Positions 47,466-53,841 of a stretch of 64,000 bases of DNA are shown here, piece after piece. Every line of letters starts with the position of its first letter. The stretch's first letter is position 1. The DNA is from Rhodoligotrophos defluvii (GTDB lineage: Bacteria > Pseudomonadota > Alphaproteobacteria > Rhizobiales > Im1), in contig NZ_SZZM01000007.1 of the NCBI RefSeq assembly GCF_005281615.1, positions 186,001 through 250,000 on the forward strand. Reading direction: 5' to 3'. Position numbers and translations under genes: made by a program. The notes under the pieces were generated by a model, which was not told where the DNA came from, made no database searches, and saw nothing but the letters and a program-made list of their open reading frames with translations.

Positions 47466-49052
47466 TCAGCTTGCGGCCAGAATATTCGGCTTGGCGGCGC
47501 GCCGGGCAAGTAGCTTGTTCAGAGCACCCACATAGGCGCGGGCTGCGGCCACCATGGTGTCCGTGTCGGTGCCGCGTCCGGTGAACGACCGGCCGTCCTC
47601 CTCGAGGCGCACGCTCACATCCGCCTGGGCATCGGTGCCTTCGGTCACCGCCTTCACCTGGAACAGCTGCAGATTGGCCTCGTGCGGCACCGCGCCCTTG
47701 ATGGCATTGAAGGTGGCATCGACCGGCCCGTCGCCGGTCGCTTCCTTGGTGATGTGCTTGCCTTCCATGCTCAGGGTGATGGTCGCCTTCTGCGGCCCGC
47801 CCGTGCCGGCGATCACCGTCAGGGCCTCCACGCGGATATATTCCTGCGAGCGCGAGACCTGATCGTCGATCAAGGCCTCGATATCCTCGTCATAGACGTG
47901 CTTCTTCTTGTCGGCCAAGGCCTTGAAGCGCTCGAACGCATCCTGGAATGCATTGTCGGACAGTTGATAGCCCAGCTCTTCCAGCTTCTTCCTGAAGGCA
48001 TGGCGGCCGGAATGCTTGCCCATCACCAGGGACGACGACTTGAGCCCCACATCCTCCGGGCGCATGATCTCGTAGGTCGAGGCGTCCTTCAGCATGCCGT
48101 CCTGATGGATGCCGCTCTCATGGGCGAAGGCATTCTTGCCGACGATTGCCTTGTTGAACTGCACGGGGAAGGAAGTTGCCGCCGCCACCAGCTTGGAGGC
48201 CCGGGTCAGCATGGTCGCGTCGATATTGGTCGCATAAGGCAGCACGTCGGCGCGCACCTTCATCGCCATCACCACCTCTTCCAGCGCCGCGTTGCCGGCG
48301 CGTTCGCCGATGCCGTTGATGGTGCACTCGATCTGCCGCGCACCGCCCTGCAGCCCGGCCAGCGAATTGGCCACCGCAAGCCCCAAGTCATTGTGGCAAT
48401 GCACGGAGAAAATGGCTTTGTCCGCATTGGGCACGCGCTCGCGCACCGCCTTGAACATGGCGCAATATTCTTCCGGCGTGGCATAACCGACCGTATCCGG
48501 CAGATTGATGGTGGTGGCGCCCGCCTTGATCGCCGCTTCGACGCAACGGGCGAGGAAATCGATCGGCGTGCGGGTCGCATCCATGCCGGACCATTCCACA
48601 TCATCGACCAGGTTGCGTGCCTGGGTCACGGTCGCTACCACGATCTCCAGCACCTCTTCCTGGCTCTTGCGCATCTGGTGCTGCAGATGAATGGGCGAGG
48701 TGGAGACGAAGGTATGGATGCGGGGCCGCTTGGCGTGGCGTACCGCCTCGCCCGCACGGGCGATATCGGCGGGGATCGCCCGGGCAAGTCCCGCGATCAC
48801 CGCACGCTTGGCTTGGCGGGCGATCTCCGACACAGCCTTGAAGTCGCCCTCAGAGGCGATGGGAAAGCCCGCCTCGATCACATCCACGCCCATCTGGTCG
48901 AGCAGATCGGCAACCTCCAGCTTCTCCTCGAAGGTCATGGTTGCGCCGGGCGACTGCTCGCCGTCGCGCAAGGTCGTATCGAAAATGATGACTCGGTCTT
49001 TGTCGCTCTGCGCCGCTACGCCTGCGCCTTGCGTCCGGGAATCCACGGTCAT
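47466..49052 (-). CDS. leuA: 2-isopropylmalate synthase
   Basis: This 528-residue enzyme makes the first committed step of leucine synthesis (acetyl-CoA plus 2-ketoisovalerate). The TIM-barrel begins [18 protein letters not shown] and has [16 protein letters not shown] and [19 protein letters not shown]; the C-terminal LeuA dimer domain (residues about 400-515) binds the feedback inhibitor leucine. Length matches the group I LeuA. The upstream leader appears to be a leucine attenuator (see the leader ORF). AGGAAACGTCCC precedes the ATG. Confidence 0.96.
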
Positions 49053-49087
49053 GGGACGTTTCCTGAAGCTTGGGACCCGACTGTCGG

Positions 49088-49166
49088 CGGGTCATGGAAA
49101 TTCGGGGTTCGGCATCTTCATCCCCTGAATACCCGCCTCGCAGTCGAAGCTGTCGGCACTCAGGGG
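49088..49166 (-). promoter_or_regulatory. Putative leucine attenuator: competing hairpins upstream of leuA
   Basis: On the minus strand region 2, CCCCTGAGT (49166-49158), spans the leader stop codon and can pair over nine positions (one G-U) with region 3, ATTCAGGGG (49130-49122). Region 3 can instead pair with region 4, CCCCGAAT (49107-49100), with one bulged A, followed by UUU. The two pairings exclude each other. This is the layout of a transcription attenuator: stalling at the leader's Leu codons leaves region 2 free to pair with 3, while completing the leader covers region 2 and lets 3-4 form. The U-run is short, so termination efficiency is uncertain. A further small stem, GACCCG/CGGGTC (49093-49074), sits next to it. 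Confidence 0.5.
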
Positions 49167-49330
49167 CTGCTAAGGAGGAGGGCGGCAAGCGCAAGGGCGG
49201 CAGCCGAAGCTGCGGCCAGGGCGGCCAGAGCCGATGCAGCAAGAGCCAAGGCAGACGCGGTGGAGCGCCAACGGTCGGCAGCAGTGCCGATCGTCTCACT
49301 CCATCCGTAGCTGGTGGTCACACCAGACAT
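49160..49330 (-). CDS. Putative leucine leader peptide of leuA (56 codons)
   Basis: This short ORF on the minus strand encodes 56 residues: a polar N-terminus (MSGVTTSYGW) and then an Ala/Leu-dominated stretch with nine leucines in residues 28-53, ending in three consecutive Leu codons (CTC CTC CTT), Ser-Ser-Pro and a stop. It lies 107 bases upstream of the leuA ATG and is followed by the competing hairpins listed separately. The ribosome site is weak (GAGG 12 bases upstream). It is longer than classic leader peptides. The alternative is a real small membrane protein, because residues 25-53 would form one transmembrane helix. Confidence 0.5.
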   Translation of the reverse strand: MSGVTTSYGWSETIGTAADRWRSTASALALAASALAALAAASAAALALAALLLSSP

Positions 49331-49433
49331 TCCCGTCACATGCCTCGCTTGGCGCTGCCCGCTGTTTGGAGATCAGACGCCGATTCGCGCAATCTTCACC
49401 GCGTGCAGCCCGGAATGGATGCACGGAGCCGCC

Positions 49434-49462
49434 ATTTAAACCGATTTCGCCGATGCATGCAA
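49434..49462 (-). promoter_or_regulatory. Candidate promoter of the leuA leader transcript
   Basis: On the minus strand TTGCAT (49457-49462) is followed after exactly 17 bases by TTAAAT (49434-49439); both hexamers are close to sigma-70 consensus. The predicted start is about 100 bases upstream of the leader ORF. It lies just after the glmS stop. The rest of the 451-base glmS-leuA gap holds the leader ORF and hairpins. Confidence 0.5.
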
Positions 49463-49503
49463 CGGCCGATCCAGCCCATGGACGCGAGGGGTCGGCCGGC
49501 AGC

Positions 49504-51330
49504 TTACTCCACCGTGACCGACTTCGCGAGGTTGCGCGGCTGGTCTACGTCGGTGCCGCGCAGCACCGCTGCGTGATAGGCCAGGAGTTGCACAGGGATC
49601 GCATAAAGCAGCGGATTGATGAAGGGATTGGCCTGCGGCACGGTCAGCGTATCGAAAGCGGAATGCCCGTTGCGCCGATGCCCGTCCGCATCGGTGATGA
49701 GCACGATGCGTCCGCCCCGTGCGGCCACCTCTTCCATGTTGGACACGGTTTTGTCGAACAGCTCGTCATGGGGGGCGATGACGATGACCGGCACCTGCTC
49801 ATCGATGAGCGCAATGGGGCCATGCTTCAGCTCGCCGGCCGCATAGCCTTCCGCGTGGATATAGGAGATTTCCTTAAGCTTCAGTGCCCCTTCGAGGGCG
49901 ATGGGATAATTGATGCCCCGCCCCAGGAACAGCACGTCGCGCGCGGTGACGATATGCTTGGCGCTCTCCTCGATCGCCCCCTCGTCCTTGAGGATCTCGG
50001 CCACGTGGCGCGGCACCTCGACCAGCGCCTGCACCAGTTCCTGCTCCTGCTCGGCACTCAGCACCTCGCGCGCCCGGCCGGCGGCAATGGCAAGGCACGC
50101 CAGCACGGTGAGCTGGCAGGTGAAGGCCTTGGTGGAGGCAACGCCGATTTCCGGCCCGGCATAGGTGGGCAGCACATAGCCTGCCTCGCGGGCGATGGTT
50201 GATTCCGGCACGTTGACCACGGCCACGGTCTGTTGGCCCTGCTGGATGCAATAGCGCAGAGCCGCCAGGGTGTCCGCCGTCTCTCCCGACTGGGAAATGA
50301 CGATGGCCAACCCGCCCTTAGGCATAGGCGCCTCGCGATAGCGGAATTCCGAGGCGATATCCACCTCGACCGGCAGCCGCGCGAACCGCTCGAACCAGTA
50401 TTTGGCCACCAGGCCGGCATAGTAGGCGGTGCCGCAAGCGGTGATGGTCACCCGGTCGAGCTTGGCGAAGTCCACCTCGAAGCTCCTCGGGAACGTGGTG
50501 CGGAGCTCCGCGAGATTCACATATTCGGCCAGGGTATGGCCGATCACCTCCGGCTGCTCGGCAATCTCCTTCGACATGAAATGGCGGTGATTGCCCTTGT
50601 CTACCAAGAGGCGCGAGCTCTGGCTAACGCGGATGTCGCGGGTGACCCCTGCCCCGTGCTGATCGAAGATCTGGGCCTGATCGCGGGTGAGCACCACCCA
50701 GTCGCCATCCTCGAGGAAAGCCACCCGGTTGGTGAATGGAGCCAGCGCGATGGCGTCCGACCCCAGGAACATCTCCCCCTCGCCATAGCCGACCGCCAAC
50801 GGACTGCCGCGCCGGGCGCCGATCATCAGGTCGTGCTCGCCGGCGAACAGGATGACGAAGGCGAAGGCGCCGCGCAGGCGCTGCAGGGTCTCGAACACCG
50901 CCTCGGCCGGCTTGCGCCCTTTGGCAAGCGCTCGCTCGATCATGTGGGCCACGACCTCGGTGTCGGTCTGGCTTTGGAACTCGGCCCCCTCCCGCGCCAG
51001 CTCTTCCCTGAGTTCGCGGAAGTTCTCGATGATGCCGTTATGCACGATGGCAACACGACCCACCACATGGGGATGCGCGTTGTCCTCGGTCGGCGCCCCA
51101 TGGGTCGCCCAGCGGGTATGCCCCATGCCGGTGGTGCCGAACAGAGGAGCGGCCGAGACCTTGGCTTCCAGGTTGCGCAGCTTGCCCTCGGCGCGCCGCC
51201 GTTCGATCTTCCCGTCTTCCAGCACCGCGATGCCGGCCGAATCATAGCCGCGGTATTCCAGGCGCTTGAGCGAATCGACCAGCATCCGGTCGACGGGCTC
51301 ATTGCCCAATATTCCAACGATCCCGCACAT
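49504..51330 (-). CDS. glmS: Glutamine-fructose-6-phosphate aminotransferase
   Basis: This 608-residue enzyme makes glucosamine-6-phosphate for peptidoglycan and LPS. The N-terminal glutaminase begins with Met-Cys2 (CGIVGILG), the nucleophile cysteine exposed after Met removal. Two SIS isomerase domains follow (SQSGETADTLAALRY; ALKLKEISYIHAEGY), and the protein ends with the conserved KSVTVE tail. No glmS ribozyme is expected or seen. It starts 11 bases after glmU, so the two amino-sugar genes form an operon. Confidence 0.97.
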   Translation of the reverse strand: MCGIVGILGNEPVDRMLVDSLKRLEYRGYDSAGIAVLEDGKIERRRAEGKLRNLEAKVSAAPLFGTTGMGHTRWATHGAPTEDNAHPHVVGRVAIVHNGIIENFRELREELAREGAEFQSQTDTEVVAHMIERALAKGRKPAEAVFETLQRLRGAFAFVILFAGEHDLMIGARRGSPLAVGYGEGEMFLGSDAIALAPFTNRVAFLEDGDWVVLTRDQAQIFDQHGAGVTRDIRVSQSSRLLVDKGNHRHFMSKEIAEQPEVIGHTLAEYVNLAELRTTFPRSFEVDFAKLDRVTITACGTAYYAGLVAKYWFERFARLPVEVDIASEFRYREAPMPKGGLAIVISQSGETADTLAALRYCIQQGQQTVAVVNVPESTIAREAGYVLPTYAGPEIGVASTKAFTCQLTVLACLAIAAGRAREVLSAEQEQELVQALVEVPRHVAEILKDEGAIEESAKHIVTARDVLFLGRGINYPIALEGALKLKEISYIHAEGYAAGELKHGPIALIDEQVPVIVIAPHDELFDKTVSNMEEVAARGGRIVLITDADGHRRNGHSAFDTLTVPQANPFINPLLYAIPVQLLAYHAAVLRGTDVDQPRNLAKSVTVE

Positions 51331-53765: not shown

Positions 53766-53841
53766 GAGCCCGTAGCTCAGTTGGTAGAGCAACTGACTTT
53801 TAATCAGTAGGTCCAGGGTTCGAATCCCTGCGGGCTCACCA
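53766..53841 (+). tRNA. tRNA-Lys (anticodon UUU)
   Basis: The 76-base cloverleaf has acceptor arms GAGCCCG / CGGGCTC, D-arm AGCTCAGTTGGTAGAGC, anticodon stem-loop ACTGA-CTTTTAA-TCAGT giving anticodon UUU, T-arm with GGTTCGAATCC, discriminator A and an encoded CCA (53839-53841). A TTGACA hexamer at 53710-53715 is a plausible -35 element, although the matching -10 is poor. Confidence 0.96.

Follow-up and report, generated by a model that had tools for sequence, protein, structure and literature searches.

Whether and how the expression of leuA responds to the supply of leucine in Rhodoligotrophos defluvii is a question raised by the unusual leader in front of this gene, in which a long open reading frame (ORF) ends in a run of leucine codons. 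The window that we analyzed is a stretch of 64,000 nucleotides, and all the features of interest are located on its minus strand (Table 1). Below, we ask which parts of the leader are conserved, with which downstream sequence the leucine codons have coevolved, and which mode of control explains these observations best.

Organization of the leuA leader

Based on its sequence and on general knowledge we take the regulated gene to be leuA, its match to TIGR00970 being under the family cut-off. It is the next gene after glmS (49504-51330, minus strand), and the gap of 451 bases between the two genes contains the leader ORF, whose 56 codons are counted from the ATG at 49330. Start codons, including the presumed start of the leader ORF, were assigned by rule. 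The first-pass annotation had described a minus-strand ORF of this length ending in CTC CTC CTT AGC AGC CCC TGA, and the sequence bears this out, with the stop codon at 49162-49160. It had also placed a sigma-70-like promoter upstream, for which a simple scan at 49000-49620 gave no sigma-70 match at its threshold. No Rfam family matches the leader locus; the sole Rfam match in the 64-kb window is a tRNA gene (53766-53838, plus strand). On the plus strand, an open frame of 542 codons (47682-49310) runs antisense to leuA and the leader; it is probably a side effect of the high GC content of this coding sequence.

Table 1. Features of the leuA leader, in window positions.
Feature	Position	Strand	Basis
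leuA, 2-isopropylmalate synthase, regulated gene	47466..49052	-	ORF; TIGR00970 match below cut-off
Leader ORF, 56 codons from ATG 49330-49328 (59 from GTG 49339)	49160..49330	-	predicted start
Control codons CTC CTC CTT (Leu-Leu-Leu)	49172..49180	-	Leu at -18 and CTT at -12 in relatives
Base stem, 5' strand TCCTTAGC, Leu codons as putative anti-Shine-Dalgarno	49169..49176	-	pair probabilities 0.71-0.95; coevolution
Leader stop TGA	49160..49162	-	conserved stop position in relatives
Conserved hairpin with leader stop: outer stem CCCCTGAGTGCC and GGCGGGTATTCAGGGG side, inner stem, GACAG-type bulge	49122..49166	-	30/30 relatives; covariation
Second hairpin of predicted junction (genus level)	49094..49121	-	MFE of locus and L002
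Third hairpin GACCCG/CGGGTC (earlier "competing stem"), no U-tract after it	49074..49093	-	MFE fold
Base stem, 3' strand GCTTCAGGA, with leuA SD AGGA 49064-49061	49061..49069	-	folding

Conservation is confined to the end of the leader ORF and the stop-codon hairpin

Leaders of 140 relatives were selected by demanding CCC at position -3, YTN at -12 and TGA, TAG, TAA or TGG at the stop. The stop codon is TGA in 123 of them, TAG in 10, TAA in four and TGG in three; the selection itself accounts for the CCC and for part of this stop count, which carry no independent weight. The last Leu codon (-12), on the other hand, is CTT in 138/140 relatives, although CTT accounts for 5.4% of the Leu codons of leuA, and this bias is independent of the selection. 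Leucine is likewise encoded at codon -18 in 138/140 relatives, and codon -15 specifies Leu in 106 of them and Arg in 34. Conservation of the Leu run, on which the proposal of a leucine leader had been made to depend, is thus confirmed. The leader frame is open upstream in all 140 relatives, more so than the other two frames. Within the ORF, only the last 6-7 codons are conserved and the first half is not; two congeners become similar in DNA sequence only from positions 49248 and 49186 onward, both of which are within the ORF, and the leaders are predicted to differ in length (23-48 codons in the 10-90% range). Conservation limited to the end, together with similarity that starts inside the ORF, argues for a presumed leader peptide and not for a conserved small protein. 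Three loci (L297, L298 and L299) read CCCCTGG or CCCCCGG and have thereby lost the leader stop, so that the ORF would run a few codons further; a hairpin-like CCCC/GGGG is retained.

The second conserved part is the hairpin that includes the leader stop. Its core, CTTANNNGCCCCTRR...GGGG, is located upstream of leuA in 30/30 relatives, a few of which are off by one base. Bases 49166-49158 (CCCCTGAGT) pair with 49130-49122 (ATTCAGGGG) with a folding probability of 0.99-1.0, and the pairing is kept in relatives, as had been anticipated. In the relatives, 94.4% of the hairpin cells are paired, against 85.9% in shuffled alignments, and 42 cells have changed on both sides, against 14.8 in the shuffles, so that the covariation predicted for these two segments is indeed present. 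In the Hyphomicrobiales the bulge is conserved in sequence (GRCWG) and CCCC/GGGG is near-invariant; the bulge is not retained in other orders. The hairpin may set the geometry, delay the ribosome, or keep the Leu run away from alternative pairing partners.

The leucine codons coevolve with the Shine-Dalgarno sequence of leuA

The Leu run reads CUCCUUA in the Hyphomicrobiales and often CUUCGACUUA in other orders. CUCCUUA resembles the anti-Shine-Dalgarno sequence at the 3' end of 16S rRNA. We compared, by permutation, the duplex that the Leu run of each species forms with its own leuA Shine-Dalgarno (SD) sequence and the duplexes that it forms with the SDs of other species; composition is constrained in SD and anti-SD sequences alike. 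For 140 non-redundant leaders the mean duplex energy was -10.92 kcal/mol with the own SD and -9.13 kcal/mol after permutation (z -9.3; 0/1000 permutations). Other leader windows mostly gave z values between -2.9 and +0.7, and the two that overlap the Leu run gave -5.2 and -6.9. When the downstream window was slid along, the peak was found at the SD only. A matrix of segments held one large value, that of the Leu run with the SD (z -9.5); the runner-up (z -4.0) paired the Leu run with the region 12-30 bases past the hairpin, which may approach the SD in short leaders.

The signal holds for each leader type (CUCCUUA, z -7.7; CGACUUA, z -6.9) and was found again in 112 leaders of named genomes that form an independent set (z -7.4). 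Shared ancestry was limited by forming 128 disjoint pairs of nearest relatives and exchanging the SDs within each pair: the own SD gave the better duplex in 95 pairs and the swapped SD in 30 (sign test, p 4.7e-9), while the control windows gave p >= 0.04. Most controls of the analysis were flat, and some windows reached z -2 to -4, a level attainable by relatedness and shared composition. At the level of words, complementary sequences co-occur (TCCTTATC/GATAAGGA, CTTAGC/GCTAAG, TCCTAA/TTAGGA and TCCTTCG/CGAAGGA), and some species, for example that of locus L153, have long matches between Leu run and SD. The register of the pairing varies, and covariation in a fixed register beside AAGGR was not significant over all species; in the A-U subset it was seen in 12/20 cases, with 7.7 expected. 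A conserved motif was also looked for between the hairpin and the SD, but k-mers were enriched there only weakly, or probably via related species.

A further observation comes from family f74, in which the element can stand ahead of a cupin-leuA operon (L319, L327 and L343, and also L144 and L148); the SD region that the Leu run matches there is that of the cupin gene. At L319 and L327 the matches are exact over eight bases, UCCUAAUC with GAUUAGGA and UCCUAACC with GGUUAGGA, judged by eye and not by permutation; the two pairs differ from each other on both sides. Locus L343 has the same gene order, cupin before leuA, and a shorter match. Most of the f74 loci that we read have a hairpin of CCTCTGAG with CTCAGAGG or CTCAGGGG, and at many of them CCCC/GGGG is changed on both sides to CCTC/GAGG. 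A first permutation test on this family gave z -3.3 at the SD and -4.0 downstream of the chosen start, values that we do not rely on because many of the starts had been wrongly chosen.

Predicted folding and accessibility of the Shine-Dalgarno sequence

In the minimum free energy (MFE) fold, the Leu run and the SD form a base stem that closes a junction, with 49176-49173 and 49171-49169 pairing with 49069-49067 and 49064-49061 at probabilities of 0.71-0.95. This base stem is short (seven pairs and an internal loop), and the fold of the leader as a whole is only mildly better than shuffles (z -1.84). It had been suggested that a stem before leuA competes with the stop-codon hairpin. The stem exists (49093-49088 with 49079-49074, with comparable stems in the MFE folds of L002 and L003), but the competition does not: both stems coexist in the MFE fold as branches of the one junction closed by the Leu run and the SD.

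Computed over 140 species, the probability that the SD is unpaired is 0.22 in the free RNA; it is 0.51 if the Leu run is masked and 0.44 if the stop codon is occupied by a ribosome. Chimeras that carry foreign SDs give corresponding values of 0.34 in the free RNA and 0.50 with the Leu run blocked. The predicted gain is small in the species of the window (0.27 to 0.34) and larger in its congeners (0.09 to 0.40 and 0.35 to 0.56). Coevolution and folding together thus point to a leuA SD that would be sequestered by pairing with the leader.

Distribution of the element

At the first 90 loci read, the element stands upstream of leuA with few exceptions, and in no case before another gene. Of 297 genomes of the order, 250 were positive with a covariance model, nearly all of them with a single match; the element also occurs in other alphaproteobacterial orders. 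In samples that, like the phylum-wide one, contain many match-free genomes with or without this type of leuA, this model was positive in 102/385 genomes of the class, and a class-wide model in 112/372. In the phylum-wide sample, 39 of the 40 matching genomes belong to the same class, and the remaining match is weak (E 0.005). An exact-pattern scan of named genomes placed 118/120 of the matches listed upstream of leuA. The 80 matches listed by name include one Treponema; the others are assigned to the Alphaproteobacteria, to subgroups of these, or simply to the Proteobacteria, and no Actinobacteria occur among them; Bradyrhizobium, Methylobacterium, Bosea, Acetobacteraceae and a Caulobacter are named among the matches listed.

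Fourteen element-negative genomes were checked. Seven are without a close leuA, and among the seven that have leuA, four show weak matches at E < 0.01 and one more at 0.14. Four genomes of family f23 (G025, G070, G105 and G135; 6-7 Mb, same order) have neither an element match nor a close leuA relative at E 1e-60. In two genomes of 1.3-1.4 Mb (L293 and L294), leuA is located, as read from the sequence, close behind an ilvC-like gene; the element was looked for at these loci and none was found.

Proposed mechanism and alternatives

The Leu run covaries with the SD of leuA, which argues for control of translation initiation, and the conservation of the leader together with this coevolution favours translational control. 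In our view the best explanation, which we regard as probable, is that the leader is a leucine-responsive translational attenuator of leuA. The Leu codons are complementary to the SD region of leuA, and the predicted base stem encloses the stop-codon hairpin. When leucyl-tRNA is plentiful, ribosomes would translate the leader to its end and dissociate, the Leu run would pair with the SD, and translation of leuA would be low. When leucyl-tRNA is scarce, a ribosome would stall on the Leu run and cover it, so that the SD would be freed and leuA translated. In our computations the Leu run is masked as well while a ribosome occupies the stop codon, and the model therefore needs a release that is fast relative to starvation stalls. 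Both the response to leucine and the direction of the effect are inferred.

Four other readings have to be weighed. In the first, the transcript would be protected by translation of the leader or of leuA, and Rho would end it early when leuA is untranslated. In favour of this, the stretch from the hairpin to the SD is rich in C and poor in T (C 0.33, G 0.27, T 0.15), and an intrinsic terminator was not found at the locus; however, the first 60 bases of leuA hardly differ in composition (C 0.33, G 0.23), and the coevolution of Leu run and SD is left unexplained. We consider Rho unlikely as the principal mechanism, but Rho termination may operate on top of translational attenuation, to which it could add a secondary polarity.

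Classical transcription attenuation, in which the stop-codon hairpin would be an antiterminator opposed to a terminator hairpin before leuA, is what the first-pass annotation had put forward. Leu attenuators with such hairpins are known in gammaproteobacteria, and a Leu-rich leader ORF, the stop-codon hairpin and the stem 49093-49074 are all present here. The comparative data strongly support the first half of that proposal, a putative leucine-responsive leader before leuA, but not its antiterminator/terminator scheme. A scan of 49000-49620 found no terminator-like site, and the longest T-run between the stop and leuA is four or fewer in 241/254 leaders. Moreover, no downstream segment covaries with either arm of the hairpin (z -2.2 to +0.7), and the stems fold together instead of excluding each other. 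Classical attenuation is thus improbable.

It is more doubtful still that the hairpin is the site of an RNA-binding regulator, as proposed for the actinobacterial LEU element, with the leader ORF being incidental. The conserved bulge and the near-invariant CCCC/GGGG in the Hyphomicrobiales would fit such a site, but the bulge is absent in other orders, many f74 loci have altered CCCC/GGGG on both sides, and conservation at the level of codons (TGA/TAG/TAA in 137/140, Leu at -18, the CTT bias) would have no place in it. Finally, the 56-codon ORF had been credited with a possible dual role as attenuator and small membrane protein on account of its Ala/Leu-rich, hydrophobic product, a reading that we find hardly credible given the varying lengths, the late start of congener similarity and conservation restricted to the last codons.

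Relation to known systems

The leader of the enterobacterial leu operon (Leu_leader, Rfam RF00512) is a known system that ends in an intrinsic terminator. It shares with the present element a Leu-rich leader peptide before leuA; it differs in its terminator, none having been found here, and the locus is without an Rfam match. In the rtpLP-rtpA (anti-TRAP) system of Bacillus subtilis, Trp control codons in a leader ORF set the translation of the next gene, and the SD is probably blocked by ribosomes that reach the end of the leader. In the present element, by contrast, the codons are Leu codons and the SD would be blocked by pairing with the Leu run. In the translational attenuators of the erm type, for example that of ErmB (PMC8274638), a ribosome stalled on the leader frees the SD of the next gene, as we propose here. 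The signal in these systems is an antibiotic, whereas we propose low leucyl-tRNA. A further difference from the erm type would be that the sensing codons themselves are the strand that pairs with the SD.

In its layout the leader is similar to the LEU element found upstream of leuA in Actinobacteria, the mechanism of which was left open (Seliverstov et al. 2005, PMC1262725); mutations in the leader of Streptomyces coelicolor were inconsistent with classical attenuation (as cited in PMC1262725). The two elements share a leader ORF with a Leu run before leuA and a base stem of Leu run and leuA SD around an inner structure (PMC1262725), a likeness of layout that is drawn from the published description and not from sequence comparison. 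No terminator was reported for the LEU element (PMC1262725), and none was found at this locus. On the other hand, the phylum is another one, and the inner structure is a pseudoknot there (PMC1262725) and a stop-codon hairpin here: in an indirect test for a pseudoknot of the LEU type, no inner segment covaried with downstream segments above control level. Our literature search found no description of an alphaproteobacterial leuA leader; two studies outside its coverage (Vitreschak 2004; Lopatovskaya 2010) may describe one.

Taken as a whole, the case is evenly balanced for a wider proposition, namely that leuA is governed throughout much of the Alphaproteobacteria by a switch that has no Rfam entry and may not have been described before. 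One set of nucleotides would serve in it both as leucine sensor (as codons) and as effector (as anti-Shine-Dalgarno), and the switch would correspond, by convergence or by ancient origin, to the LEU element of Actinobacteria. The covariance models supplied here describe an element that Rfam lacks. If the proposition is true, the coevolution favours a translational mechanism based on tRNA charging where the 2005 work on LEU left the mechanism open, so that an old unexplained actinobacterial element would be linked to a testable mechanism. It would also provide a simple design rule, control codons that double as anti-Shine-Dalgarno, and a testable explanation for leucine control throughout a large class of bacteria.
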